This document shows, piece by piece, positions 17,823 through 48,645 of a DNA stretch of 64,000 nucleotides; position 1 is the first letter of the stretch; every line of letters starts with the position of its first letter. A program made the translations under genes and the position numbers. Source of the DNA: Phaeobacter sp. 11ANDIMAR09 (GTDB lineage Bacteria; Pseudomonadota; Alphaproteobacteria; Rhodobacterales; Rhodobacteraceae). Below the pieces are notes generated by a model. The model ran no database searches. It was not told the origin of the DNA and was given only the letters and a program-made list of their open reading frames with translations. The stretch lies in assembly GCF_001294455.1 (NCBI RefSeq), contig NZ_LIKT01000001.1:186001-250000 (forward strand). The letters are read 5' to 3'.

Positions 17823-17837
17823 TTAAACTACAGTTAA
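17823..17837. promoter_or_regulatory. CtrA-type box TTAA-N7-TTAA
   Basis: TTAA at 17823-17826 and TTAA at 17834-17837 are separated by exactly seven bases, and the right half continues as TTAACCAT, matching the CtrA consensus. It lies 53 bases before the start of the PAS-domain gene, a reasonable place for direct control. Binding is inferred. Confidence 0.55.
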
Positions 17838-24736: not shown

Positions 24737-27700
24737 GCACCCCCTCTGCAAAACCCCGCGATGACGCCTCTGAGGCGCAGTTCCGTGCCGCGCGCCCTGA
24801 TGCCTCGACCTGGCTCGCGGCCAATGCCGGCTCCGGTAAGACAAAAGTTCTGACCGACCGCGTGGCGCGGTTGTTGCTCAAGGGCGTGCAGCCGCAGCAC
24901 ATTCTGTGCCTCACCTATACCAAGGCCGCCGCCAGCGAGATGCAGAATCGTCTGTTCCAACGTCTGGGCGAATGGGCAATGCTGCGGGACCCCGAGCTGA
25001 CAGCGGCGCTCAGTGAGTTGGGCGAGGTCAACACGCAGGCCGAGGATCTGGCCCAGGCGCGCACGCTCTTTGCCCGCGCCATTGAGACCCCCGGCGGGCT
25101 CAAAATCCAGACCATCCACTCCTTTTGTTCCTCCCTGCTGCGGCGTTTCCCGCTGGAGGCCGGCGTCAGCCCGCAGTTTTCCGAGATGGAAGACCGCGCC
25201 GCATCCCTGTTGCGGGCCGAGATTGTCGAAGACATGGCCAAGGGTGAATTGGCGCATCTGGTGGGACCTCTGGCCCGCCATGTGGGCGGCAGTGATTTTG
25301 AAGATTTGACTTCGGCCCTGTGCCAACGCCGCGCCGAGTTTGAAACTATTCTGGACTGGTCCGCGCTACTGGCCCGCTTTGATCTGCCGGATGGGTTTGA
25401 TCAGGCAGAGCTTGAGGCCATGGTGTTTCTGGGCGGCGAGGCAGAATTGCTGTCGCGCACCCGTGCCATGCTGGAAACCGGCGGTACCACCGATCAACGC
25501 GCCGCTGCCAAACTGGCTGGGATCTCCACGCCGACACTGACCGACCTTGCCACATTGGAAGGCATTTTTCTGACCGGCGCCGGAGCTGCGGATCCTTTCA
25601 CTGCCAAGGTAGGGAAATTCCCCACCAAGAAACTGCGCGAAGCCAATATTGCCCTGATGGACCAGCTGGAGCCTCTGATGCTGCGGGTGGAAGACGCCCG
25701 CGCCAAACGGCTGGCGCTGGTGGCGGCGCGGAAATCCCAGGATCTGCACCAGTTCGCACAGGTCTTTCTACCGGAATATGAAGCCCGCAAGCAGCAACGC
25801 GGCTGGCTCGACTTTGACGATCTGATCCTCAACGCGCGCCATCTGTTGAATGACCCGGCGGTGGCCGCTTGGGTGCTGTACCGTTTGGACGGCGGCATCG
25901 ATCATATTCTGGTGGATGAGGCCCAGGATACCAGCCCGGTGCAATGGAACGTGATCGAAAAACTGGCGCAGGAATTCACTGCTGGGATCGGCGCACGATC
26001 CGATGTCGAGCGCACCATCTTTGTGGTCGGCGACAAGAAACAGTCGATCTATTCCTTTCAGGGTGCCGACCCGGATGCCTTTGATCGCATGCAGGTGGAA
26101 TTCGCCAATCGGCTATCGGAATCTGGATCGGGGCTGCAAAACGCCGCGCTGGAGTTTTCCTTCCGCTCCTCGGCGGCGATCCTGCGGCTGGTGGATCTGG
26201 TGTTTAAGGATAGCCCGCGCGCCGGCTTTCACAGCGATGCCCTGCACCGCGCCTTTAAATCCGACCTGCCCGGGCGGGTGGACCTGTGGCCTGCAGTGGA
26301 CAAGAGCGACGAGGACGAAGAGAGCGACTGGACCGATCCGGTGGATCGCCCCGGCAAGCGTCACCACACTGTCATTCTGGCCGAACGCATTGCCCGCCAG
26401 ATCAAAGACATGATCGACCACAAAGTCACAATTCCCGAGGATGGCCCAACGCGCGGCACATTTCAGCGCCGCCCCGTGCATGCGGGCGATTTCCTGATTC
26501 TGGTGCAGCGCCGCTCGGAACTGTTTTCAGAAATCATCCGCGCCTGTAAAAACGCCGACCTCCCCATTGCCGGGGCTGATCGGCTCAAGGTTGGGGCGGA
26601 GCTAGCAGTCAAGGACATCGCCTCGCTGCTGTCCTTTCTGGGTACGCCCGAGGATTCGCTGGCCCTGGCCGAGGTGCTGAAATCGCCCCTGTTTGGCTGG
26701 TCCGAGCAGATGCTGTTTGATCTCGCCCATCACCGCAGCAGCAAACACCTGTGGCCGGCGCTGCGCGAGCGTCGCGATGACTTCCCCGAGACCATGGCGG
26801 TGCTGGATGATCTGCGCGATCAGACCGATTTTCTGCGTCCCTTTGATCTAATCGAGCGCATCCTGACCCGCCATCAGGGGCGGCAAAAACTGCTGGGCCG
26901 ACTGGGACCTGAAGCTGAGGATGGCATCAATGCGCTACTGTCGCAGGCCTTGGCCTATGAGCGCTCTGACATTCCCAGCCTCACCGGATTTCTGGTCTGG
27001 ATGCAGACCGATGATCTGGAGATTAAGCGACAGATGGGGGCCTCGGGGGATATGATCCGGGTGATGTCAGTCCATGGCTCCAAAGGTTTGGAAGCGCCGA
27101 TTGTGATCCTGCCAGATACCGCCAAACGCAACGCCCCCAGTGATGCGGAGATCATGGTGGCGGAGGGCACACCTCTGTGGAAACTGCCCAAGGATCAGAT
27201 GCCGGATCTGCTGGCCAATGCCCGCGAGGCGGCGCAGGAGAAACAGCAAAACGAACGCCTGCGCCTGCTTTATGTGGCGCTGACCCGGGCCGAAAAATGG
27301 CTGATCGTCGCCACAGCCGGGCAGTTGTCGAAAGAGGGGGACAGCTGGTATCAGCGGGTTGAGGCGGCCCTGCAGGAGAGCGGCGCCACAGCCTGCGATC
27401 TGCCGGGTGGGGAAGGCTTGCGTCTGGCGCATGGCGATTGGGAGGGCTTGGAGCTGGTCTCGCGTGAGATCCAGGACAAAACCCTGCCCAGCCTACCCGC
27501 AGTCTTTACCCAGCCCGCGCCTGCCTATCTGGCCCCGGAACCTGCGCTAAAGCCTTCGGATTTGGGGGGAGCCAAAGCCCTGCCCGGGGAACAGGGTCTG
27601 AACGAAGCGCAGGCAATGGCCCGCGGCAGTCGACTGCATCTCTTGCTGGAACATCTGCCGGCAAGGCCCCACGCTCAATGGGGGGACCTGACGGATCGGT

Positions 27701-28101
27701 TGTTGCTAGATGCTGCGGATCGCGCCGAACTTCTGGCCGAGGCCGAAGCGGTGTTGACCAATCCAGACCTGTCCCACGTCTTTTCTCCTGATGCCCTGGC
27801 CGAGGTTCCGGTCACGGCCTGGCTGGGTCATCGGCGAATCTACGGCATCATCGACCGGCTGGTCGTGACTCCGCGGCGGGTGCTGGCAGTGGATTTCAAA
27901 TCCAATGCCGAAGTGCCGCAAAGCCTGCAGAACTGCCCCAGGGGTCTGCTGCGCCAGATGGGCGCCTATGGTCATGCCCTGCGCCAGATCTACCCGGACC
28001 GTCAGATTGATTGCGCGCTGCTATGGACCCGGAACGCCAGCCTGATGATGTTACCGCACGATCTTGTGACAGATGCGTTCAAGGAGGTGTTGGAACCTTG
28101 A
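24733..28101 (+). CDS. addA: Double-strand break repair helicase-nuclease AddA
   Basis: A 1122-residue UvrD-type helicase fused to a C-terminal nuclease. Walker A AANAGSGKT is at about 29-37, CLTYTKAAASEMQNR is motif Ia, LVDEAQDTSPVQW is motif II, VVGDKKQSIYSFQGADP motif III, MSVHGSKGLEAPIV motif V and RLLYVALTRAEKWL motif VI. The C-terminal nuclease has GIIDRLVV and LAVDFKSNAEVP. The start overlaps addB by four bases. Both subunits being expressed from overlapping genes fits their obligate complex. Confidence 0.97.
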   Translation: MSTPSAKPRDDASEAQFRAARPDASTWLAANAGSGKTKVLTDRVARLLLKGVQPQHILCLTYTKAAASEMQNRLFQRLGEWAMLRDPELTAALSELGEVNTQAEDLAQARTLFARAIETPGGLKIQTIHSFCSSLLRRFPLEAGVSPQFSEMEDRAASLLRAEIVEDMAKGELAHLVGPLARHVGGSDFEDLTSALCQRRAEFETILDWSALLARFDLPDGFDQAELEAMVFLGGEAELLSRTRAMLETGGTTDQRAAAKLAGISTPTLTDLATLEGIFLTGAGAADPFTAKVGKFPTKKLREANIALMDQLEPLMLRVEDARAKRLALVAARKSQDLHQFAQVFLPEYEARKQQRGWLDFDDLILNARHLLNDPAVAAWVLYRLDGGIDHILVDEAQDTSPVQWNVIEKLAQEFTAGIGARSDVERTIFVVGDKKQSIYSFQGADPDAFDRMQVEFANRLSESGSGLQNAALEFSFRSSAAILRLVDLVFKDSPRAGFHSDALHRAFKSDLPGRVDLWPAVDKSDEDEESDWTDPVDRPGKRHHTVILAERIARQIKDMIDHKVTIPEDGPTRGTFQRRPVHAGDFLILVQRRSELFSEIIRACKNADLPIAGADRLKVGAELAVKDIASLLSFLGTPEDSLALAEVLKSPLFGWSEQMLFDLAHHRSSKHLWPALRERRDDFPETMAVLDDLRDQTDFLRPFDLIERILTRHQGRQKLLGRLGPEAEDGINALLSQALAYERSDIPSLTGFLVWMQTDDLEIKRQMGASGDMIRVMSVHGSKGLEAPIVILPDTAKRNAPSDAEIMVAEGTPLWKLPKDQMPDLLANAREAAQEKQQNERLRLLYVALTRAEKWLIVATAGQLSKEGDSWYQRVEAALQESGATACDLPGGEGLRLAHGDWEGLELVSREIQDKTLPSLPAVFTQPAPAYLAPEPALKPSDLGGAKALPGEQGLNEAQAMARGSRLHLLLEHLPARPHAQWGDLTDRLLLDAADRAELLAEAEAVLTNPDLSHVFSPDALAEVPVTAWLGHRRIYGIIDRLVVTPRRVLAVDFKSNAEVPQSLQNCPRGLLRQMGAYGHALRQIYPDRQIDCALLWTRNASLMMLPHDLVTDAFKEVLEP

Positions 28102-28126
28102 CGATCTGTTACGCTCTACCTAGGTT
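28098..28126 (+). promoter_or_regulatory. possible trxA promoter
   Basis: TTGACG at 28098-28103 and TAGGTT at 28121-28126, 17 bases apart, lie at the end of addA and 38 bases before the trxA ATG. The -35 is good and the -10 poor, so trxA may have its own promoter in addition to read-through. Confidence 0.35.
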
Positions 28127-28163
28127 CCCAGTCCAGTTGCCATAGATCTCAGGAGACATTCCC

Positions 28164-28484
28164 ATGTCCACCGTAGCCGTCACCGACGAAACATTTGACG
28201 CCGAAGTCAAGAACTCCTCTGTCCCCGTTGTGGTGGATTTCTGGGCCGAATGGTGTGGTCCCTGCAAACAGATCGGCCCCGCTCTGGAAGAGCTGGCGGC
28301 CGAATATGGCGACAAGGTAAAGGTTGTTAAGGTTGATGTTGACAGCAACCCGAACTCTGCCGCTGCCATGGGCGTGCGTGGCATTCCGGCGCTGTTCATC
28401 TTCAAAGACGGTCAGGTTGTTTCCAACCGCGCCGGCGCAGCCCCAAAGGCCGCGCTGCAGAGCTGGATCAACGAATCGATCTGA
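28164..28484 (+). CDS. trxA: Thioredoxin
   Basis: A 106-residue cytoplasmic thioredoxin, the general dithiol reductant. The active site WCGPC is at 30-34 in [14 protein letters not shown], and the cis-proline is in [18 protein letters not shown] lies upstream of the ATG. It follows addA by 62 bases and is closed by a strong terminator. The addA-trxA adjacency is frequent in alphaproteobacteria. Confidence 0.98.
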
Positions 28485-28511
28485 TAGATCAAAGCTCAGA
28501 ATTCTTTAAAG

Positions 28512-28537
28512 GCGCCCTCGATTGAGGGCGCTTTTTT
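28512..28537 (+). terminator. rho-independent terminator of trxA
   Basis: GCGCCCTC (28512-28519) pairs perfectly with GAGGGCGC (28524-28531) across GATT and is followed by six T residues. A textbook terminator 27 bases past the trxA stop. Confidence 0.92.
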
Positions 28538-28555
28538 ATTTCAAGGACTCCCTTT

Positions 28556-28774
28556 ATGACCCCAGTATTTCGCCAAAAAGCTATTGCCATCTGTAGTGAC
28601 AAGATTGACAAAAAAGGCGAGGGCGTCGGCCTATCCTTTTATGCCTTTTTCAAGAACCAAAATGAGGATCCTGAACTGCTTATGCAGGTTGCGACCTGGT
28701 GGATCCAGACCCATCGGCTGGACCATTTTGAGAAGGCTGTGAAAATCCGGGAGATGCTGCGGTCCGATCTGTAG
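28556..28774 (+). CDS. small conserved protein (DUF6500-like)
   Basis: A 72-residue soluble protein with the segment GVGLSFYAFFKNQNEDPELLMQVATWWIQTHRLDHFEKA, which I believe matches the DUF6500 family of short proteins; the family number is from memory. Function unknown. It begins just after the trxA terminator and is followed by a copy of the intergenic repeat, so it is probably a single-gene unit. The ATG at 28556 has AAGGA about ten bases upstream. Confidence 0.7.
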   Translation: MTPVFRQKAIAICSDKIDKKGEGVGLSFYAFFKNQNEDPELLMQVATWWIQTHRLDHFEKAVKIREMLRSDL

Positions 28775-28818
28775 CCCGATCGGAGAGAGGCCCATCTGAT
28801 GTTTCAATCGGGATCTAA

Positions 28819-28882
28819 GGGGGCGCTGCCCCCATCGGCCCTGGCGGGCCTCTTCCCCCGGGATATTTTAGGCCAAATGAAG
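28819..28882 (+). repeat. intergenic repeat, copy A
   Basis: Two hairpins (GGGGGC-GCT-GCCCCC, then GGCC...GGCC) followed by CCCCCGGGATATTTTAGGCCAAATGAA. The same order of parts recurs at 59321-59385 (inverted), 61864-61920 and, degenerate, 53295-53346. It lies between two genes read in the same direction. Confidence 0.8.
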
Positions 28883-28946
28883 AATGGGGGTTTTCTTTTG
28901 GCCCTGGGCGCGGAGAGTGGCGGAGCGGAGAAACAAGGGGGCTGGC

Positions 28947-29297
28947 ATGGCCAAGACACGGGTATTGGTGGAGTTTGGAATGGGCAGCTCGCTGCGGCGG
29001 CAGGATTATACCGAGGCCGCAATACGCGCAATCAAAGATGCGCTCTGGCATAATTCGGTCAATATGGCGGAGCTGTTTGATTTTCCAAAGGAAGCGATGA
29101 TCATCGATGCCGAGATTGGCGTGGCCCAGCCGGATCAGGTGGATGTGGCGGCGCTGAAGGCGATCTTTCCCTATGGGCAGCCCAGCGTCACGGTGCGTGA
29201 AGGCGGGCTGGATGTGGCAAAGCCCCAGGGTGGGGGCGTCACGGTGATGGCCAATGCCGCCGTCATTGTCTCCTTTGATATGGAGCAGGTGTCATGA
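28947..29297 (+). CDS. Lin0512-family protein, first of a tandem pair
   Basis: A 116-residue protein starting MAKTRVLVEFGMGSSLRRQDYTEAAIRAI, typical of the Lin0512 family: small α/β proteins with no assigned reaction. It has no signal or membrane segment. A GGGG lies before the ATG at 28947. It overlaps the next gene, a paralogue, by four bases. The pairing suggests a heteromeric complex, which is inference. Confidence 0.78.
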   Translation: MAKTRVLVEFGMGSSLRRQDYTEAAIRAIKDALWHNSVNMAELFDFPKEAMIIDAEIGVAQPDQVDVAALKAIFPYGQPSVTVREGGLDVAKPQGGGVTVMANAAVIVSFDMEQVS

Positions 29298-29659
29298 GCA
29301 AGAAACGGATCATTTTGGAAATGGGCACCGGCAATGATCTCTATGGTCAGGACTATACCAAGGCGGCGCGGCGGGCGGTGCAGGATGCTCTGCATCATTC
29401 CTCGATCACCCTGTTTTCCAAACTGGGGCTAGATCACACTGAAATGCAGGTGGATGTCACCATTGCGGTACAGGACCCCAATCAGGTGGATTGTGATTTG
29501 GTGGCCGAAGATCTGCCGCGCGGGCGGGCCAGGGTGCGGGCGGTCAAGGGGGGGTTGAACGTCACGGATCCGGACTCCGACGCTGTTCATGTGATCGCCA
29601 CCGCTGCGATTGAAGCCTGGGTGCCGGATCAGGCGGGTCGCTACAAGCTCAAGCGCTGA
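29294..29659 (+). CDS. Lin0512-family protein, second of a tandem pair
   Basis: A 121-residue paralogue of the preceding protein. Both share the pattern V/I-L-x-E/F-MG-x-G-x-x-L-x-x-QDYT-x-A-x-R-A-x-x-DAL near the N-terminus and a VREGGLDV/VKGGLNV segment near the C-terminus. The stop-start overlap ATGA implies coupled translation and near-equal amounts. A hairpin terminator follows. Function unknown. Confidence 0.78.
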   Translation: MSKKRIILEMGTGNDLYGQDYTKAARRAVQDALHHSSITLFSKLGLDHTEMQVDVTIAVQDPNQVDCDLVAEDLPRGRARVRAVKGGLNVTDPDSDAVHVIATAAIEAWVPDQAGRYKLKR

Positions 29660-29669
29660 AAAAGACAAA

Positions 29670-29700
29670 GCCGCCCCGGATTGGAGCGGCTTATCTGCTT
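29670..29700 (+). terminator. terminator after the Lin0512 pair
   Basis: GCCGCCCC and GGAGCGGC pair with one mismatch across GGATT, followed by a T-rich stretch. It also sits at the 3' side of the convergent DUF1127 gene and may serve both. Confidence 0.65.
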
Positions 29701-29729
29701 TGGTGCATGCTGCACCTGGTCTACAAAAC

Positions 29730-29921
29730 TTACAGTTTGTCGATATCTGCCCGCGCGAGGCCGATGTCTTCCAGCTGTGCCGCAGTGAGCTGAGACAGCG
29801 CCTTGCGGGTCTGGCGGGATTCATTCCATTCAACCATGTTGGTTTTGAAGTTCATGAGTCCGTCTACCAAACGAAGAACGGAGACTGCGCCCAGCGGCGC
29901 ATGGAGGTTTGCGGTCGTCAT
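29730..29921 (-). CDS. DUF1127 small protein
   Basis: A 63-residue protein whose C-terminal half (TRKALSQLTAAQLEDIGLARADID) matches the DUF1127/YjiS motif. Such arginine-rich mini-proteins bind RNA or tune phosphate and carbon metabolism in Agrobacterium and Rhodobacter; the role here is unknown. It is divergent from hslV across 246 bases and convergent with the Lin0512 pair. Confidence 0.82.
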   Translation of the reverse strand: MTTANLHAPLGAVSVLRLVDGLMNFKTNMVEWNESRQTRKALSQLTAAQLEDIGLARADIDKL

Positions 29922-30112
29922 TGCACTAGTCCTTTAAATTCGTGTGTATTCACGTTGTCTGCTTGTAGGCTTCATGTAGGAGAGCTTGCTGAGTCCTACA
30001 ATTGCCCATTAAACAGCCCCGTTTTGCGCTCTGTGCATAGCGCCTAAGCAGTTGGTTAACGCCCTGCCCGAGTTTGAACGCGGTGGCCAGGGTCTGCAGC
30101 ATCCGGCTGAGC

Positions 30113-30141
30113 CTTGTACCGGATCGGAGATAGATCCATAT
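30113..30141 (+). promoter_or_regulatory. candidate RpoH (heat-shock) promoter of hslV
   Basis: CTTGTA at 30113-30118 and CCATAT at 30136-30141, separated by 17 bases, resemble the alphaproteobacterial sigma-32 consensus (CTTG and CYTAT). They lie 26 bases before the hslV ATG, which has CTGGAGG as its ribosome site. This fits known heat-shock control of hslVU. Confidence 0.55.
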
Positions 30142-30167
30142 AGAAGGCAACAAAACTGGAGGCATAA

Positions 30168-30758
30168 ATGGCAAATGATCAATTCCCAGGCTGGCACGGA
30201 ACCACCATCATTGGTGTCAAAAAGGGTGGTGAAGTGGTCATTGCCGGCGATGGGCAGGTCTCTCTCGGGCAAACGGTGATCAAGGGCACAGCCCGTAAGG
30301 TGCGCCGCCTGTCTCCGGGAGGGTTTGACGTGGTTGTCGGCTTTGCCGGCTCCACCGCCGATGCTTTTACCCTGTTGGAACGCCTGGAAGCCAAGCTGGA
30401 AGCCACCCCAGGTCAATTGGCGCGGGCCAGCGTTGAACTGGCCAAGGATTGGCGAACCGATAAATACCTGCAAAAACTTGAAGCCATGCTGATCGTCACT
30501 GACGGGACCGAGCTCTTGGTGATCACCGGAGCCGGGGATGTGTTGGAGCCCGAACATAATGTGGCGGCGATTGGATCTGGCGGTAATTTTGCGCTGGCGG
30601 CAGCGCGGGGCATGATAGACAGCGACCGCAATGCCGAGGCTGTGGCCCGCGATGCCATGGCGATTGCTGCTGATATCTGTGTCTATACCAATGGCCGTTT
30701 GACCGTCGAAAGCATTGCTGCCGACAGTCGCGCCGCAAACCCCACCTCGGAGAGCTGA
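30168..30758 (+). CDS. hslV: ATP-dependent protease peptidase subunit HslV
   Basis: A 196-residue proteasome-type peptidase that forms the core of the HslUV protease. The propeptide [11 protein letters not shown] is removed to expose Thr12 as N-terminal nucleophile ([10 protein letters not shown]). [15 protein letters not shown] and [14 protein letters not shown] are family hallmarks. The propeptide is longer than that of Escherichia coli (one residue) but usual in alphaproteobacteria. hslU follows, though a membrane-protein gene lies between them. Confidence 0.97.
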
Positions 30759-30759
30759 T

Positions 30760-31830
30760 GTGAGCCAGATCGACCAGGATGACATTCGCGCCGCCGTCGG
30801 CTCTGGCCTGATCAGCGAGGCCCAGGCGGCCTCCTTGCTGGCAATATCTCATAGCCGGCGCGGAGCGCGTGAAGACTTGGCGCCTGGAGATGAACCCTTT
30901 GAGCTGTTCAAAGGGTTCAATGAGATTTTCATCGTCATCGGCATGCTCATTCTGGCCTCAGGCTGGGCTGCCGTCACCGCGGCCTATATCGCAGGCTCTC
31001 TGGGTGGATATATAGACAAGACCATCTATTCTGCGGCCCTGGGGGCTGTGCTGCTCTGGGTCTTTGCCGAATATTTCATTCGCCGTCGCCGGATGATCGC
31101 CCCAGCCATCGCGCTGTCACTGCTTTGGGCTGCCAATGCCGGGACCGGCATGACCGCCTTTTTCTCGGAACCCTTCATGGTGGCACAGAATGATCTGTCC
31201 AGCCTGCCGCTGCCTATGGCGCTGACCACGGCTGCAGTAGCGCTGTTCTGGCTGCGCTTTCGGGTTCCCTTTGCCATGGCTCTGATTGCGCTTGGGGTTT
31301 TTGCCCTTACCCTGATGATGGCCGCGGAACAGGCCGGCCGCCCAGAGGGGATCAGCGATTTCTTCCTGTTTTCTGCCTCTGGCCCCTTTGCCTGGGTGAC
31401 CCTGGTGGTGGGAATCGCCGTCTTTGCTGTTGCGATGATGTTTGACCTCAGCGATCCGCACCGCGTCACCCGGCGCGCGGCGCAGGGGTTCTGGCTGCAT
31501 GTTGTGGCCGCGCCTGCCCTGGTCAATACCATTGCGCTGAGCCTGCTGGACCAGGGCACTTCTGGCGCGCAGCTGACGCTGGTTGCTGTGCTGTTTGCCT
31601 TTGCCCTGGTGGCCATCGTGATTGACCGGCGCTCCTTTCTGATTGCCGCCATCGGGTATAGCGTGACCCTGGCAGGCACTGTGTTTGACGGTGATGGTGC
31701 TGCCATGACCATTCTTTTGCTGGGTTTCTTCCTGGTGATCCTTGGCGCCTTCTGGGCGCGGATCCGGGCCGCCCTGCTTTCTCCTTTGGGTGCTGTGCTG
31801 CCGCTGCACCGCCTTCCTCCTTCTCACTGA
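30760..31830 (+). CDS. multispanning membrane protein between hslV and hslU
   Basis: A 356-residue protein I can only describe as DUF2157-like. A soluble N-terminal stretch of about 50 residues ([21 protein letters not shown]) is followed by about ten hydrophobic helices. The start is the GTG at 30760, one base past the hslV stop, with GGAGAG seven bases upstream. hslU follows 13 bases after the stop, so it is embedded in the heat-shock operon. Function unknown; a membrane-stress role is a guess from context. Confidence 0.7.
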
Positions 31831-31843
31831 AACGAGACATCCC

Positions 31844-33157
31844 ATGACTGACCTGACACCCCGCGAAATCGTTTCTGAACTGGACCGCTTCATCATTGGC
31901 CAGAACGACGCAAAACGCGCCGTAGCTGTGGCCCTGCGCAACCGCTGGCGCCGCAAGCAGCTGCCGGATGATCTGCGCGATGAGGTATACCCCAAGAACA
32001 TCCTGATGATCGGACCTACCGGCGTGGGCAAAACCGAAATCTCGCGCAGGCTGGCCAAACTGGCGCGCGCGCCGTTCATCAAGGTAGAAGCCACCAAATT
32101 CACCGAAGTGGGCTATGTTGGCCGGGACGTAGAGCAGATCATCCGCGATCTGGTGGATAGCGCCATTGTTCAGACCCGCGAATTCATGCGCGAAGACGTC
32201 ACCGCCAAGGCACAAAAGGCCGCCGAGGACCGGGTGATTGACGCGCTGGCAGGCGAGAGCGCCCGGGAAAGCACCCGAGACGTTTTCCGCAAAAAGCTGA
32301 AATCTGGGCAGCTTGACGATGCGCAGATCGAATTGGATGTCGCCGATACCGCAAACCCGATGGGCAATATGTTTGATATTCCTGGCCAGCCCGGCGGCGG
32401 CAACATGGGGGTGCTGAACATCGGCGATCTCTTGGGCAAGGCCATGGGCGGGCGCACGGTACGCAAAAAGATGACCGTGGCCGAAAGCTATGAAGTGCTG
32501 ATCAGTGACGAGGCCGACAAGCTGCTGGATGATGAGGTTGTCACCCGTGCTGCCATTGAATCGGTTGAGCAAAGCGGCATCGTCTTTCTGGATGAGATCG
32601 ACAAGGTCTGCGCCCGTTCGGATGCGCGTGGTGGCGATGTCAGCCGCGAAGGGGTGCAGCGGGATCTGTTGCCCCTGATTGAAGGCACCACCGTCAGCAC
32701 CAAACACGGGCCCATCAAAACAGACCATATCCTGTTCATCGCCTCCGGCGCCTTTCATGTCGCCAAACCGTCGGATCTGTTGCCCGAATTACAGGGCCGC
32801 CTGCCGATCCGGGTCAACCTGCGCTCGCTGAGCGAGGCGGATTTTGTCCGCATCCTGACAGAAACCGACAATGCGCTGACACTGCAGTATACCGCGCTGA
32901 TGAAAACCGAAGAGGTCGAAGTGACCTTTACCGAGGATGGTATCGCCGCGCTTGCCAAGATCGCTGCCGAAGTCAATCACACGGTTGAAAACATCGGCGC
33001 CCGGCGCCTTTACACAGTGATTGAACGGGTGTTCGAAGAGCTTTCCTTTAACGCCCCCGACAAGGGCGGAGAGAAGGTCACCATCAACGCCAGCTTTGTC
33101 GGCAAACATCTGGGTGAATTGGCCAGCAAAAGCGATCTTAGCCGCTATGTACTGTAA
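31844..33157 (+). CDS. hslU: ATP-dependent protease ATPase subunit HslU
   Basis: A 437-residue AAA+ unfoldase that feeds proteins to HslV. It starts [20 protein letters not shown], has Walker [11 protein letters not shown], Walker [11 protein letters not shown], and the sensor/C-terminal region [18 protein letters not shown] ending in the family's RYVL, which docks into HslV. The inserted I-domain (about 110-240) is present. Longer in-frame starts within the upstream gene were rejected for lack of homology. Confidence 0.98.
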
Positions 33158-33267
33158 AACACTGCGACGCGCAAATGCGGCGCGTTGCAGACCGGTTTGC
33201 ATCTGGCTGTGGGCTTGTTAGCCTGCAGCCGGATCATCCGGATTTAGGTCTTCTACAAAGGTTGTTT

Positions 33268-34392
33268 ATGTTTGTCCTCCGTTTGGCTGCCGGGATCAGC
33301 CTCCTTTTGGCCCTCGGCTGCACGGATCGAAGCCTGTCTCCGGTCACCCCCGAAGCCCTGAATGTGGGCACGCCAAAAACCATCTTTGTCGCCACAAACA
33401 GGGCCGAACTGCCCGATGGGTCTTTTGGGCCGGCCCGCAGCGAAGACTACAGCCTGCTGGAGCTAACGGTTTCCATTCCGCCAACCCATACCCCTGGCAA
33501 GCTGGAATTCGGCTACGCAAACCCTGATCCCCAAACTGAATTCACCCTGGCTGCACGCAATCAATTTCAGGATATTGCGGATTTTGATCGCCGTATTAAA
33601 TCCGAGCTGAGCCAATATGCGCCAAATGAGCGGGACGTGCTGGTCTTTGTACATGGCTACAACAGCACCCAGGCCGAAACCGCCTTTCGGGCTGCCCAGC
33701 TGACCCATGATCTGGATACTCCGGGGGCCACGATTGTCTATTCCTGGCCAAGCCTCGGCAGCCCTCTGGGCTATGCCTACGACGGTGACAGCGTCTTGTT
33801 TGCCCGTGATGGATTAGAGCGACTTTTGCGGCATCTAGAAAAGGCCGGTGCCCGGAGAATTGTTCTGGCAGCGCATTCCATGGGATCCGTGCTGGCCATG
33901 GAGGCTCTGCGCCAGATGGAGATCAGATCCCCAAATTGGTCAGACCAGAACCTTGCCGGCGTCATCCTTTTGTCCCCCGATCTGGATCTGGATGTTTTTC
34001 GCAGCCAGATCAGACAGTTCAAAAAGGTGCCGGAACCCTTTGTGGTATTTGTGTCGAGCAAGGACCCGATCCTGGGCATCTCCCGGCGCATCCGGGGAAC
34101 CCACAGCCGCGAACGTCTCGGCAGTCTCAGCTCCATTGATGCGGTCTCTGACCTGCCGATTGAAATTATCGACACCAGCGCCTTTGCCAAAAACGCCGAA
34201 TCCGGTCATTTCATAACCGCAACATCGCCAACGTTTCTTGCCCTGTTGAATGAGGCGCAGGCAACCGAGGATGCTTTTGATGCCCGCCCCCAAGCGGTAG
34301 CAGAATTTACCCAGATCCTGCCAGACGCGGCGGTTGATCATGACATGGTAGGCGAGGCCCTGTTAGTGACCTTTACCGGCGGCGAGCGCTGA
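33268..34392 (+). CDS. DUF900-type alpha/beta-hydrolase lipoprotein
   Basis: A 374-residue protein with a lipoprotein signal (MFVLRLAAGISLLLALGC, lipidated Cys18). The DUF900-type hydrolase domain has the oxyanion segment VLVFVHGYNS, the nucleophile in LAAHSMGSVLAME, an acid near LSPDLDLDVF and a likely catalytic His in AESGHFITA. It should be membrane-anchored outside the cytoplasm; substrate unknown. AAAGG precedes the ATG at 33268, and an in-frame start at 33175 would destroy the signal. It follows hslU by 110 bases and may have its own promoter. Confidence 0.8.
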   Translation: MFVLRLAAGISLLLALGCTDRSLSPVTPEALNVGTPKTIFVATNRAELPDGSFGPARSEDYSLLELTVSIPPTHTPGKLEFGYANPDPQTEFTLAARNQFQDIADFDRRIKSELSQYAPNERDVLVFVHGYNSTQAETAFRAAQLTHDLDTPGATIVYSWPSLGSPLGYAYDGDSVLFARDGLERLLRHLEKAGARRIVLAAHSMGSVLAMEALRQMEIRSPNWSDQNLAGVILLSPDLDLDVFRSQIRQFKKVPEPFVVFVSSKDPILGISRRIRGTHSRERLGSLSSIDAVSDLPIEIIDTSAFAKNAESGHFITATSPTFLALLNEAQATEDAFDARPQAVAEFTQILPDAAVDHDMVGEALLVTFTGGER

Positions 34393-39359: not shown

Positions 39360-40189
39360 CGCAGCGCAGCCGCGCGTGTTGCGGTATCCACATCGGGGCG
39401 TTGGCCAAACCAGCGTTCAAAACCCGGCACGGCCTGATGCAGCAACATGCCCAACCCATCAACCACGGTGCAGCCAACCTCTTCTGCTGTTTGCAGCAAA
39501 TCCGTCTTGAGCGGTGAATAGATCAGATCGGTGACAACCTTGTCCGGGGTCAGCCCATCCAAAGGCACCCGCAGGCGGGGTTTCCCAACCATGCCAAGTG
39601 AGGTGGTATTGACCACCAGCAAGCCTTCTTCGACGATATTCCCGGCATGGAGCCAGTCCACAACAGTGATGCGCTTGCCAAATTCCTTTTGCAGCTGTTC
39701 AGCTCGGTCGCGGGTCCGGTTGGTCAGCAGGATCTCGGGCACGCCGGCTTCGATCAGTGAGGCTACAACCGCACGGCAGGCGCCACCTGCACCCAGTACA
39801 GCCGCCGGACCATCGCCAGGAACCCAATCCGGCGCGCCCTGTTGCAGATTGGTGATAAACCCATAGCCATCTGTATTGTCTGCCAGAATGGAACCGTCAC
39901 TGCGAAAGATGATGGTATTGGCTGCCCCCATTAGCTTCGCCCGATCAGTCACCTTATCCGCGATCTGCATCACCGCTTCTTTGTGCGGGATGGTGACATT
40001 GACCCCGACGAACCCGGCCTTGGGCAGGGTTCGGATTACGGTCTCCAGGTCGTCAGGTTCCACATGCATGGGGATGTAGTGGCCAGCAATGCCATGGGTC
40101 TTGAGCCAATGCGTTTGCAACTGTGGCGATTTGGAATGCGCGACCGGACAGCCAATCACACCGGCCAGCGGGATTTTCTTGTCACTCAT
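39356..40189 (-). CDS. aroE: Shikimate dehydrogenase (NADP+)
   Basis: A 277-residue AroE that reduces 3-dehydroshikimate in aromatic amino acid synthesis. GCPVAHSKSPQLQ binds substrate, NVTIPHKEAVM holds the catalytic Lys, and GAGGACRAVV and TNRTRDRA form the NADP site. Four-base overlaps on both sides (maf and coaE) show tight operon packing. Confidence 0.97.
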   Translation of the reverse strand: MSDKKIPLAGVIGCPVAHSKSPQLQTHWLKTHGIAGHYIPMHVEPDDLETVIRTLPKAGFVGVNVTIPHKEAVMQIADKVTDRAKLMGAANTIIFRSDGSILADNTDGYGFITNLQQGAPDWVPGDGPAAVLGAGGACRAVVASLIEAGVPEILLTNRTRDRAEQLQKEFGKRITVVDWLHAGNIVEEGLLVVNTTSLGMVGKPRLRVPLDGLTPDKVVTDLIYSPLKTDLLQTAEEVGCTVVDGLGMLLHQAVPGFERWFGQRPDVDTATRAAALR

Positions 40190-40785
40190 TGATCAATTGC
40201 ACCCTGTAGTCCCAAATAGTTGAGCAGTTCCACCAGAGGTAGTCCCAGAACATTAAAGTAACTCCCTTCAATGTTAGAAAACAAGCGCACGCCTTCCTCT
40301 TCCAGCTTATAAGCCCCAACGGCATGTCGAATACTTTGCCAGTTGCGCGTGACATAGGCGGAAAGATAGCCATCCGAGCACTCATGCATCCGCAGCCGCA
40401 CCTGACCGACATGGCGCCAGATCGGCTCGCCGTCACGGTAGATCACTGCGGCGGACAGTAACATGTGTCGTTTTCCGCGCATGGCGCTAAGCTGCGCCAG
40501 AGCTTCCTCTTCGCTTTTTGGCTTGGACAAGAGCCTACCTTCAAAGTCGAGCACTTGATCACAGCCGAGAACCAGCGGCCCTGGGTTTTTCATACTCACT
40601 TTGCGCGCCTTTGCTTCGGCCAGGGCATCAGCGATGTCACGGGGTCCAGCGCCTTCGGCCAGCAAGGCCGCTTTGATCGCCTCTTCATCGACGCGGGCTG
40701 GTTGCACGTCGAAGGGCACGGCGGCCTGACGCAGCAGCTGCGCACGGATTTCGGAACCAGAGGCCAGCAGGATGTGGGCAGACAT
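40186..40785 (-). CDS. maf: Maf-like nucleotide pyrophosphatase
   Basis: A 199-residue Maf-family protein that hydrolyses non-canonical or modified NTPs and is linked to division control. LLASGSEIRAQLL is the N-terminal signature, LGCDQVLDFEGRLLSKP the second. First gene of the maf-aroE-coaE-dnaQ operon, whose promoter must lie in the putative origin region. In many alphaproteobacteria a kinase/phosphorylase regulator gene (RP001 type) sits between the origin and maf; it is absent here. Confidence 0.94.
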   Translation of the reverse strand: MSAHILLASGSEIRAQLLRQAAVPFDVQPARVDEEAIKAALLAEGAGPRDIADALAEAKARKVSMKNPGPLVLGCDQVLDFEGRLLSKPKSEEEALAQLSAMRGKRHMLLSAAVIYRDGEPIWRHVGQVRLRMHECSDGYLSAYVTRNWQSIRHAVGAYKLEEEGVRLFSNIEGSYFNVLGLPLVELLNYLGLQGAIDQ

Positions 40786-40892
40786 GTGGAAAACCCCATG
40801 GAAAAGACGCGCAAGTTTATAGGATGGTTTGTATGGTTTTCAGCGCTTTTGGCAAGTGCACAGGCAAAGTGGAAATTCCAGGAAAGGATCCG

Positions 40893-40960
40893 CTGATTCC
40901 TCCGCCGGGGATTGGGATAACTCGCCAAAGCGGGATATCTGCGATCTCCCTGATTCCTCC
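40893..40960 (+). repeat. 11-bp direct repeat in the putative origin
   Basis: CTGATTCCTCC occurs at 40893-40903 and again at 40950-40960, 57 bases apart start to start. It is not a DnaA or CtrA consensus. Confidence 0.8.
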
Positions 40961-40986
40961 AAAGGATATCCCCAAGGTAATCTAAG

Positions 40987-41001
40987 TTAACAAACCGTTA
41001 A
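40987..41001. promoter_or_regulatory. CtrA-type box in the putative origin
   Basis: TTAACAAACCGTTAA is an exact TTAA-N7-TTAA and also fits the palindromic TTAAC-N5-GTTAA form. An extra half-site TTAACC is at 41023-41028. In Caulobacter CtrA binds such sites to silence the origin. Confidence 0.55.
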
Positions 41002-41197
41002 TTTCCCTTATTTACAAAGGCGTTAACCAAAGTGTCACCAATGTGGCGACTTTGCTGCGGGCTATTCATTCACACTGGGGATAAGCCCGTGAAGGACTGA
41101 ATAATCCACCGAAATTGGCCACACTACAAAAACATCATCCTTTAAATCTTTCTTTATTATTATAAGGGTGAGCCATCGAAGCCTGAGAGAGAGACCG

Positions 41198-41653
41198 ATG
41201 GACCTGACAGACTGGATGTTCACCCTCTACCCATATGCGAAATCGCTGCACATCATGGCTGTGCTCAGTTGGATGGCAGGTTTGTTCTATCTCCCGCGTC
41301 TGTTTGTGTATCACGTGGAGCAGGCAGAGAAGGTTCCTGAAAGCCTCTCGATCTTTGTCACCATGGAATACAAACTGCATCGTTTCATCATGCGTCCTGC
41401 CATGATGGTGAGCTGGGGCGCAGGGCTGTTTATGGTGGCGACGCCTGGTATCGTCGACTGGAGCTATATCTGGCCCTGGACCAAGGGTCTCTCGGTGCTT
41501 GCGATGACATGGTTCCACTACTGGCTCTGGCAGCGTCACAAAGACCTGGAAATGGGTCAGAACCGGCTTAGTGGCAAATACTATCGCATGATGAACGAAG
41601 TCCCGACCCTGCTGATGGTGGTGATCGTGGTCTCGGTGATCTTCAAGTTCTGA
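41198..41653 (+). CDS. hemJ: Protoporphyrinogen IX oxidase HemJ
   Basis: A 151-residue four-helix membrane protein of the HemJ (UPF0093) family, which oxidises protoporphyrinogen IX to protoporphyrin IX. The heme-ligand His is in AKSLHIMAVLSWMAGLFYLPRLF and the conserved Lys in RLSGKYYRMMNEVPTLLM. GAGAGAGA precedes the ATG at 41198; a start ten codons upstream is less likely. It is the first gene right of the putative origin. hemE, often found here in relatives, is missing. Confidence 0.95.
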   Translation: MDLTDWMFTLYPYAKSLHIMAVLSWMAGLFYLPRLFVYHVEQAEKVPESLSIFVTMEYKLHRFIMRPAMMVSWGAGLFMVATPGIVDWSYIWPWTKGLSVLAMTWFHYWLWQRHKDLEMGQNRLSGKYYRMMNEVPTLLMVVIVVSVIFKF

Positions 41654-44435: not shown

Positions 44436-44451
44436 TGTTTCACGTGAAACA
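44436..44451. promoter_or_regulatory. parS site 1
   Basis: TGTTTCACGTGAAACA is a perfect 16-bp palindrome identical to the parS consensus bound by ParB. It spans the start region of mnmG, 3.3 kb upstream of parB and about 3.2 kb from the putative origin. Confidence 0.95.
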
Positions 44452-46318: not shown

Positions 46319-46935
46319 ATGGACGTGGCTTGCTCGATCAAATGAATGTTTCACGTGAAACAATATCGAGATTGGAGCGGTTTGAGGAGATTCTGCTGAA
46401 GTGGAATCCCAAGATCAATCTGGTTTCCAAGGCCAGCCTCGAAAACCTTTGGCACCGACATATTGTTGATTCGGTGCAGGTCTTTACCTCTGTTAAAGAT
46501 CCTGGCGACTCTTGGGTTGATATCGGCAGCGGTGGCGGGTTTCCTGGGATTGTGGTTGCAATCATGGCAGCTGAGTATTTTCCCAAAACTAAAGTCACCT
46601 TGATCGAAAGTGACCAACGCAAGTCGGCTTTCCTACGTACAGCCGCACGGGAATGTGGAGTTCCCGTCACTGTTCTGAGCCAGAGGATTGAACAGGCCAC
46701 GCCACAGAACGCACATATCCTGTCGGCACGGGCGCTGGCAGAGCTCGATACGCTTCTAGAATTTTCAGAACAACACTTGGCCAAGGATGGCCTGGCTGTG
46801 TTCCCAAAGGGTGCGAATTGGAAAAAAGAAGTGGATAAAGCTGCAGAGCGATGGAGTTTCGATGTTGAACCGATTACAAGTTTGACTGAGACTGAAGCAG
46901 TTATTCTTAAGATCAAGGGAGTCGTTCGTGTCTGA
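46315..46935 (+). CDS. rsmG: 16S rRNA (guanine-527-N7) methyltransferase RsmG (GidB)
   Basis: A 206-residue SAM-dependent methyltransferase of 16S rRNA G527. The SAM loop is [25 protein letters not shown] and [10 protein letters not shown] follow. Codons 12-16 (VSRET in NVSRETIS) are written by the second parS site. An alternative start at 46342 would put the parS directly after the ATG. The last eight bases overlap parA. Confidence 0.96.
46347..46362. promoter_or_regulatory. parS site 2
   Basis: A second exact TGTTTCACGTGAAACA, 1911 bases from the first and inside the rsmG coding sequence. It is about 580 bases before parA. No third copy was seen in the window. Confidence 0.95.
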
Positions 46936-47737
46936 TTTATCCCGCCCAGAGGGGCCTCGAATTATCGCGGTTGCAAATCAAAAGGGCGGAGTAGGTAAGA
47001 CAACGACAGCCATAAATCTGGCTGCGGCTTTGGTAGAGACCGGGCTACGGGTTTTGGTCGTTGATCTCGACCCTCAGGGAAATGCTTCTACCGGGCTTGG
47101 GATTGAAAGCGCGGATCGCGAATCTACCACATATGACCTTTTGGTCGATGATGCCCCGCTAGATGAGGTGATTCGAACTACAGAAATCGAAGATCTCTGC
47201 GTGATTCCGGCTACCGTTGATCTGAGCTCGGCCGATATTGAACTCTTCGCCAATGAAAAGCGTAGCTTCCTGTTGCATGACGCGCTGCGGCAGACTGCGA
47301 TGGATGAATATGATTGGGACTATGTCCTGATTGATTGTCCACCTTCTCTTAACCTTTTGACAGTGAACGCCATGGTTGCAGCGCATTCTGTCCTGATCCC
47401 ATTGCAAAGTGAGTTCTTTGCTCTGGAAGGGGTGTCGCAATTGTTGCTAACCATTCGGGAGGTTCGTCAGTCGGCCAATCCAAATTTGCGGATCGAAGGC
47501 GTGGTGTTGACCATGTTTGATCGCCGCAACAACCTGTCCCAGCAGGTCGAACAGGATGCACGGGACAATCTGGGCGAACTGGTATTTGAAACCAAGATTC
47601 CGCGGAATGTGAGAGTCAGTGAAGCGCCGTCCTATGCTTTGCCTGTCCTCAGCTATGATGGCAACTCTTTGGGTGCGCAGGCCTATCGCGCCTTGGCAGA
47701 AGAGTTGATCTCTAACAACCAAACAGTCGCGGCGTGA
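46928..47737 (+). CDS. parA: Chromosome partitioning ATPase ParA
   Basis: A 269-residue Walker-type ATPase that moves ParB-parS complexes at cell division. The deviant Walker A is KGGVGKTTT near residue 20, followed by VVDLDPQGNASTGLG and the Walker B DYVLIDCPPSLN. Translation starts at a GTG (46928) that overlaps rsmG by eight bases. This is the chromosomal type: no replication initiator gene is nearby. Confidence 0.97.
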   Translation: MSDLSRPEGPRIIAVANQKGGVGKTTTAINLAAALVETGLRVLVVDLDPQGNASTGLGIESADRESTTYDLLVDDAPLDEVIRTTEIEDLCVIPATVDLSSADIELFANEKRSFLLHDALRQTAMDEYDWDYVLIDCPPSLNLLTVNAMVAAHSVLIPLQSEFFALEGVSQLLLTIREVRQSANPNLRIEGVVLTMFDRRNNLSQQVEQDARDNLGELVFETKIPRNVRVSEAPSYALPVLSYDGNSLGAQAYRALAEELISNNQTVAA

Positions 47738-47751
47738 GAGCGGAGTAGAAA

Positions 47752-48645
47752 ATGTCTGAAAAAAGAAACAAACCCCGTGGATTGGGTCGTGGTCTGTCTG
47801 CCCTGATGGCGGATGTTAATCCCGAGCCCGTCAGCACCGAGGTGCAATCGCCGCGCAATGCAGAGATCCTGGTCCCGATCGAAAAGGTCGTAGCCAATCC
47901 AGATCAGCCCCGTCGCCAGTTTCTGCAGGAAGATTTGGATGATCTAACGGCCTCGATCAAGGAAAAGGGCGTTCTGCAGCCCCTGATCGTGCGACCTCGG
48001 GAGGGGGGCAACTACGAGATCGTGGCGGGTGAACGCCGTTGGCGTGCGGCCCAGGCGGCACAATTGCACGAGGTCCCGGTGCTCGTTCGGGACTATTCGG
48101 ATGTTGAGATGATGGAAGTGGCCATCATTGAAAACATCCAGCGCTCGGACCTGAATGCAATGGAAGAAGCGCATAGCTACAAACAGCTGATGGAACGGTT
48201 CGGCCATACCCAGGAGCGCATGGCAGAGGCCCTGGGAAAGAGCCGTAGCCACATCGCCAATCTGGTGCGTCTGTTGCATCTTCCAGAGGACGTGAGAGCG
48301 CTGGTTCATGAGCGTAAACTATCTGCCGGACATGCGCGGGCTTTGATCACCTCTGACAACGCTTCGGACCTGGCCAGCAAGATTGTAAAAGGCGGGTTGT
48401 CGGTCCGCGCCACCGAAGCGTTGGTCAAAAAAGATGCGGCCGGGCTGCAGGCTGCGGCGCCACGTAAATCGCGCCCGGCAGCAGATAAGGATGCAGACAC
48501 TAAGGCGCTGGAGGGCGATCTGTCGGCAATGCTTCGGATGAAGGTTTCGATTGATCACAAGGCGGGAGGCGAATCTGGGTCTGTCACCATCAGCTACGAG
48601 ACGCTGGATCAGCTGGATGAACTTTGCAACATCCTGAGCAAGTGA
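47752..48645 (+). CDS. parB: Chromosome partitioning protein ParB (Spo0J family)
   Basis: A 297-residue CTP-dependent DNA clamp that loads at parS. The N-terminal domain has VVANPDQPRRQF, the CTP-binding GERRWRAAQ and a middle HTH (MAEALGKSRSHIANLVRLLHLP); the C-terminal dimerisation segment ends the protein. The two parS sites in mnmG and rsmG are its expected targets. It lies 14 bases after parA. Its stop abuts the stop of the convergent DUF454 gene with no base between. Confidence 0.97.
   Translation: MSEKRNKPRGLGRGLSALMADVNPEPVSTEVQSPRNAEILVPIEKVVANPDQPRRQFLQEDLDDLTASIKEKGVLQPLIVRPREGGNYEIVAGERRWRAAQAAQLHEVPVLVRDYSDVEMMEVAIIENIQRSDLNAMEEAHSYKQLMERFGHTQERMAEALGKSRSHIANLVRLLHLPEDVRALVHERKLSAGHARALITSDNASDLASKIVKGGLSVRATEALVKKDAAGLQAAAPRKSRPAADKDADTKALEGDLSAMLRMKVSIDHKAGGESGSVTISYETLDQLDELCNILSK

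Follow-up and report, generated by a model that had tools for sequence, protein, structure and literature searches.

The intergenic gap between maf and hemJ as the very probable chromosomal origin of a Pseudophaeobacter-like Rhodobacteraceae bacterium

In Phaeobacter sp. 11ANDIMAR09, 412 bases (40786-41197) separate maf on the left from hemJ on the right, and the question raised by this gap is whether replication of the chromosome starts there, although neither hemE nor RP001, between which the alphaproteobacterial hemE-RP001 origin lies, is on its flanks. Direct flanking by these two genes is taken here as customary, rather than defining, for a Cori-type origin. Coordinates are those of the window, the whole stretch of 64,000 bases that was analysed (G000:C1:186001-250000), unless given for contig C1, which at 312,582 bases makes up 6.6% of the draft genome (4.7 Mb, 101 contigs). 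A sequence-only reading of the window had named the gap as a likely origin, and this is supported by the skew minimum at which it lies, by its conserved boxes and block, by a profile of the gap, and by homology to the element found beside RP001 in other families. On these sequence grounds the whole intergenic gap is very probably the oriC of this Pseudophaeobacter-like bacterium, for which a mechanism and a derivation of the flanks are proposed below.

Both neighbours are transcribed away from the gap: maf (40186-40785) is on the minus strand (Pfam PF02545, E 3.8e-44), and hemJ (41198-41653, with its ATG at 41198) is on the plus strand (PF03653, E 8.8e-55). The gene names of the locus were verified with family models, where Maf and HemJ exceed the Pfam cut-offs and fall under those of NCBIfam (HemJ reaches 123 of 138 bits for TIGR00701), and ParA is below the cut-offs of every family model that it matched. 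The outward transcription that had been read from the open reading frames extends on both sides, with maf, aroE, coaE and dnaQ on the minus strand to the left and hemJ, rho, trmE, gidA, gidB, parA and parB on the plus strand to the right. The gene order had also been likened to that around other alphaproteobacterial origins, and it does match the neighbourhood of RP001 in other alphaproteobacteria, where the stretches fetched have, to the extent of their length, secB, dnaQ, coaE, aroE and maf to the left and rho, trmE, gidA, gidB and parAB to the right. The parS and parAB that were thought to be nearby are present as two exact 16-mers on the plus strand, at the start of gidA (44436-44451) and close to the start of gidB (46347-46362), 3.2 and 5.1 kb from the gap, and as parA and parB (46928-48645, plus strand, by family models), which start at 46928 and 47752. 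Closeness to parAB is one of the criteria for oriC described in PMC6699656. By HemJ, at 85% identity, the nearest named relatives are Phaeobacter sp. CECT 5382, Pseudophaeobacter sp. EL27 and Roseobacter sp. MED193, and the bacterium is for this reason regarded as Pseudophaeobacter-like.

The arrangement recurs in relatives: of 91 hemJ loci that were examined, 89 have maf and hemJ diverging from a gap (77 distinct gaps). The spacing there is 344-453 bases counted with the hemJ ATG, by which measure the window has 415 rather than the 412 used here. These 91 loci are the best-scoring matches from several searches, one of which gave 30 of its listed matches; they are biased to near relatives, include some genomes twice, and include nine that were fetched by likeness to the gap itself. 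At two of them, L048 and L188, there is no match to maf, and L188, from another family, has RP001 and hemE diverging from the gap instead. The 77 distinct gaps comprise 12 of the genus and 65 others, the latter reduced through shared 8-mers to 49 diverse gaps. As a DNA query the raw gap finds matches in only 10 of 120 family genomes, its own included, and gaps were therefore located mainly through the neighbouring gene. One record with this locus, L157 (JAHVJD010000003.1, 1-10447), is titled Nocardioides marinus; it has the Rhodobacteraceae gap between maf and hemJ, the same gene order and a HemJ that is 79% identical, which would suggest that it is probably mislabelled.

Over the whole 312,582-base contig the cumulative GC skew has its minimum at C1:226,689 (window 40,689), 97 bases to the left of the gap, with a precision limited by parts of the window at 23-27 kb that come within 25 units of it. 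Every one of the 21 ten-kb bins from 1 to 210,000 of the contig has negative skew and every one of the nine bins from 230,001 onwards has positive skew, the two bins between them being mixed (+0.028 and -0.021). A two-slope fit places the turn at window 26,500. Inside the negative arm, window 27000-34000 has mostly positive skew, and plus-strand genes for HslV-like (Pfam Proteasome) and HslU-like (AAA) proteins lie there. This stretch broadens the minimum into a plateau at about 23-41 kb, and skew alone was rejected as a locator of the origin, being too coarse where 23-27 kb nearly ties.

The contig also carries dnaA, near which the sequence-only reading had allowed for a competing minimum; no such minimum occurs. 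The gene is at C1:96,262, 130 kb from the gap and within a negative-skew arm that continues for more than 110 kb, and the DnaA-box matches near it are scattered, with eight of at least 7 bits over 5.5 kb. An origin beside dnaA, as in many bacteria, is thus strongly disfavoured and has next to no probability, even though dnaA is often the marker of an origin and here shares a contig with the gap. In two other genomes, G013 and G075, there are 15 extra matches each to PF00308 (DnaA-type), nearly all in open frames that repeat one or two lengths (247, 269 or 286 amino acids). These proteins are probably the helper ATPases of insertion sequences, which we take to be IstB of IS21-type elements.

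Since the contig is only 6.6% of the genome, two chromosomes of the same genus, G123 and G120, were sampled for skew in 20 stretches of 20 kb each. In G123, where hemJ is at 2,285,936, the sampled skew stays negative from 412 to 2,286 kb and is positive from 2,472 kb onwards. G120 has hemJ at 3,732,466 and its sampled turn at 3,590-3,780 kb; in both, the opposite turn is roughly half a chromosome away from the turn at hemJ. Two genomes of other genera fit less well: G055 has hemJ at 123 kb and its sampled turn at 230-420 kb, and the turn of G003 falls at 380-540 kb, a distance of 0.46-0.62 Mb from hemJ round the circle. These two count as evidence against a simple skew rule.

The near tie at 23-27 kb, and the two-slope turn at 26.5 kb, would agree with a different account of the gap, in which it is only a regulatory region shared by maf and hemJ, whose promoters are probably within it, and in which replication starts elsewhere, for example on the 23-27 kb plateau. 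DnaA and CtrA also act as transcription factors, and sites for them would then serve transcription. This account is nevertheless very improbable given the number of DnaA sites in the gap, its homology to the element beside RP001 and its length next to different neighbours. By a DnaA-box matrix made from relatives outside the genus, the gap has seven sites of at least 8 bits where 0.30 would be expected per 415 bases, a number attained nowhere else on the contig; with the threshold at 6 or 7 bits, one other place equals the gap's count.

That several DnaA-box-like 9-mers are present, as had been noticed from the letters, is therefore upheld by the relatives' matrix and weak by the strict E. coli consensus, with which only two one-mismatch sites touch the gap, at 40785 and 41076, and 14 are found in the whole window against 7.2 expected. 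The strict consensus was dropped as the means of deciding because it gives too few sites in this species, and the matrix from the relatives was used instead. The boxes of the window are somewhat degenerate (ATATCCCCA, TTATCCCCA and TAATCCACC) and for this reason largely escape searches by the strict consensus.

From left to right, the 9-mer TTTTCCACA (40785-40793, minus strand), with one mismatch to TTATCCACA, overlaps the start of maf by one base, and its positions 40786-40793 are invariant in all 12 genus members. It is followed by TTATCCCAA (40912-40920, minus strand; 10.5 bits by the relatives' matrix) and by a plus-strand box position, 40966-40974, which reads ATATCCCCA here and TTATCCACA in the family consensus and recurs at a similar offset in relatives. 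Further to the right is the minus-strand box TTATCCCCA (41076-41084; 11.4 bits), again unchanged across all 12 genus members, and finally, beside the putative unwinding block, a plus-strand box at 41102-41110, identified by the relatives' matrix and the alignments, that is TAATCCACC here and TAATCCACA in the family consensus. Among the 77 distinct gaps, boxes recur at about -232 (plus strand), -123 (minus) and -97 (plus) from hemJ, and three of the gaps are without any DnaA site within one mismatch. Box positions are also conserved in the aligned 49 diverse gaps outside the genus. Within the genus, invariant columns among the 12 members make up 51% of the whole gap, compared with 80% of the AT-rich block and 78-100% of each of the six main box positions.

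This block, the proposed DNA unwinding element, is at 41125-41164, beginning 14 bases past the box at 41102-41110, and at 82.5% AT it bears out the very AT-rich block that had been reported in the gap. Such a composition is attained by 6 of the 312,543 40-mers of the contig, two of them here. The other four, at C1:114,638 (L014 14638-14680, that is C1:114638-114680), are the only other 40-mers of the contig as AT-rich as the block. In the 49 diverse gaps the last box is directly followed by a block, CTACAAAAnCATCATCCTTT, and then by an AT-rich run, although the exact core of the block is absent from nine of them. In the window this family-wide conserved block is CTACAAAAACATCATCCTTT (41124-41143, plus strand), placed by the alignments.

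The basal unwinding system described in PMC8287927 consists of a DnaA box, a spacer of 0-16 and at least three DnaA-trios, and the gap is like it in its order of box and then AT block. In the window, the box-like TTGGCCACA (two mismatches) is followed after 10 bases by three triplets that fit the published trio grammar. The fit is loose, however: TTGGCCACA is poorly kept within the genus, with 3 of 9 positions invariant, and the grammar is found at the matching place in 14 of the 49 relatives (against 1.5 in shuffles), so that most relatives do not fit. The DnaA-trio grammar was accordingly set aside as proof of an origin.

Between the boxes at 40966 and 41076 lies a CtrA-type box, TTAACAAACCGTTAA (40987-41001, plus strand), an exact match to TTAA-N7-TTAA that is 12 bases from the DnaA box at 40966-40974. 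The window holds two exact matches against 0.11 expected, the second being outside the gap at 17823-17837. A full box is at a constant place in all 12 genus members (1.0 per gap, against 0.02 in shuffles), but in only 4 of the 49 diverse relatives outside the genus, at other offsets, the nearest being in L050. The sequence-only reading was therefore right that the gap has a CtrA-type box, of which one is exact, but the box is not a general mark of the Rhodobacteraceae origin, and it was rejected as a family-wide feature. Among the 12 genus members the half-sites are invariant at 8 of 8 positions and the spacer at 1 of 7, a pattern as would be expected of a bound site.

It can thus be suggested tentatively, as an addition to the reading of the gap as an origin, that the box puts initiation under the control of CtrA as in Caulobacter, the invariant half-sites, the excess over shuffles and the closeness to a DnaA box all being in keeping with this. 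The single full box compares, by description, with five footprinted in Caulobacter crescentus Cori (PMC1914354), and this, together with the scarcity of the box outside the genus, makes such control rather unlikely. The number of TTAA-N7-TTAA boxes is reported to vary among alphaproteobacterial origins, with zero in some (PMC1914354). That a CtrA site was kept or gained between these two boxes in one genus, where it would gate initiation, is likewise a doubtful possibility for the present.

Two GANTC-type (CcrM-like) sites, both GATTC, are in the gap, at 40895-40899 and 40952-40956, with GANTC at the matching offsets in 12 of 12 and 11 of 12 genus members. Outside the genus GANTC is modestly enriched, at 2.4 against 1.7 per gap. 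In the 49 diverse gaps the sites cluster near -310 (-330 to -291) and near -105 (-110 to -91) from hemJ, a hint that methylation sites may be conserved at the origin. An IHF site, WATCAN5WTR, is reported for all of the bacteria considered in PMC1914354, and the published alphaproteobacterial origins described there differ in this from the gap of the window, in which the consensus is absent, as it is from all 12 genus members; 14 of the 49 others have one. The IHF site is not taken here as defining for a Cori-type origin.

The specificity of the element was assessed with a profile of the gap built without the genus and run on the contig and on 80 sampled stretches of relatives. Its single match on the contig is the gap (E 3.6e-57), and it also finds the same gap in G123, the next match having an E of 0.26. 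A second, box-plus-block model, R1, covers 90 positions of the right part of the gap, including the conserved block, and was made from 30 sequences outside the genus: 9 of the 49 diverse gaps had no anchor, and 10 of the 40 anchored gaps were removed by hand, chiefly for an anchor on a shifted repeat or a poor anchor. In the whole genome of 4.7 Mb, R1 finds a single match, at window 41082-41168 (E 9.4e-18; 150 of 387 first-look candidates scored).

When 190 class genomes were searched, R1 had matches at an E of 0.01 or better in 43 of them, 3 in the family and 40 outside it. Half of the latter (20) also have RP001, and in 16 of these 20 the match is 0.26-1.05 kb upstream of RP001 in divergent orientation, with one more at 3.6 kb and three elsewhere. 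In the 20 outside-family genomes without an RP001 match, most R1 matches are near the threshold and may be due to chance. There is nothing for R1 in 98 of the 118 class genomes that have RP001, so that the model is not sensitive outside the family. The 16 RP001-adjacent loci and the one at 3.6 kb were fetched, a set chosen for its R1 matches. In these 17, maf is to the left of RP001 in 15, the next gene tested to the right is hemE in 14 and rho in three, and in 13 the gap profile has a match within the interval that separates RP001 from hemE or rho. The origin of C. crescentus was mapped to the hemE-RP001 gap (PMC1914354), and by description this origin likewise has DnaA boxes and an AT-rich block. 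The matches beside RP001, taken together with the mapping of the Caulobacter origin to that place, suggest that the element of the window is homologous to it in both place and sequence, which is not what would be expected of a region serving only maf and hemJ.

How the flanks came to lack hemE and RP001 can be followed within the family. Their absence, pointed out from the letters, holds for the genome at large in the case of RP001 (PF03618), which has no match anywhere in it, while hemE is on another contig, at C4:44887. RP001 is kept in 7 of 149 family genomes, in all seven beside the gap, three of them having the order RP001-gap-hemE-hemJ and four RP001-gap-hemJ. Six further family loci were considered: G003 and G010 have maf-gap-hemJ, G017 has maf-gap-hemE-hemJ, and the arrangement in G059 and G008 is unclear. 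The sixth, L238 (G083), has hemE-hemJ with no match to maf or RP001 leftward in the fetched stretch, and L237 (G059) has an altered left side, also with no match to maf or RP001 in the fetched stretch. Gap lengths in the seven RP001 genomes and G017 are about 408-481 bases, measured approximately between the ends of protein matches, and 412 in the window. The length is thus similar whether hemJ or hemE is to the right, and maf or RP001 to the left, and such constancy despite changed neighbours is not explained by the promoter of one gene, as the regulatory account of the gap would need. The gap profile matches all four of the RP001-gap-hemJ genomes but finds nothing in G017 or in the three family members with both genes, although one to three boxes occur there at up to one mismatch.

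A tree of Rho, HemJ and Maf, made by FastTree from 46 of 47 chosen loci and rooted by hand, has the 27 genomes with neither hemE nor RP001 as one group (support 1.0), and these 27 and the four RP001-only genomes as a group (0.995); L232 and L239, labelled as belonging to the family, group with the outgroup. From the intermediate arrangements and the tree it follows that the absence of both genes from the window's flanks is derived. The simplest reading is that in the line of the window hemE left the right side once and that RP001 then left the left side once. The placement of G017, and perhaps of G083, in other parts of the tree suggests that RP001 was also lost separately. This suggests that hemE and RP001 would be neighbours of the alphaproteobacterial origin, not parts of it. 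Replacement of a neighbour has a parallel in the proposed Wolbachia ori, in which a CBS-domain gene replaces RP001 (PMC1914354).

The location of the origin as such is in print. A 2016 genome paper on Ketogulonicigenium vulgare states, from DoriC, that an oriC adjoining maf is conserved in the Rhodobacteraceae (PMC4793288), which is the same location and the same family, with nothing essential that differs from the gap described here. Presenting the location as unreported was rejected on this account; it is already known for the Rhodobacteraceae, and the window is a sound instance of it. The concern that an automatic caller could miss an origin without RP001 and hemE beside it needs correcting, since such callers do find it, given the statement drawn from DoriC (PMC4793288) and the 101 Rhodobacteraceae chromosomes in which oriC was placed by Ori-Finder with manual curation, eight having failed (PMC6699656). 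The passages of PMC4793288 that concern oriC name neither hemJ, hemE nor RP001, nor an order of loss. The order in which hemE and RP001 were lost is a newer point, and the restriction of the CtrA box largely to one genus is also among the newer points; for neither this order nor a CtrA box at a roseobacter origin was a description found in the part of the literature that is in open-licence PubMed Central.

Following what is established of DnaA, initiation at the gap would proceed by DnaA binding to the conserved boxes. The box at 41102-41110 would guide a filament of DnaA onto the neighbouring block (41124-41164), which is conserved and rich in AT, and this block would open and receive the helicase. 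We infer these steps, helicase loading and the action of ParB included. Two forks would then depart, one to each side and co-directional with the genes transcribed outward, and the new origins would be segregated by ParAB together with the parS sites that lie 3-5 kb to the right. The flanks would have reached their present state through the loss of hemE first, on the right, and of RP001 second, on the left, with a similar length of gap throughout.

If this is so, the start point of the chromosome is fixed to a few hundred bases, as is needed for work on gene dosage, skew and replication timing in the roseobacters. The departure of hemE and RP001 would have left the origin in place and with much of its length, and the surviving intermediates argue for finding origins by their own sequence, box and block, besides hemE and RP001. 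With a CtrA box restricted to the genus there is also a contrast in the control of initiation that can be tested, and, should the box prove to gate initiation, the family would hold natural CtrA-gated and ungated versions of one origin.
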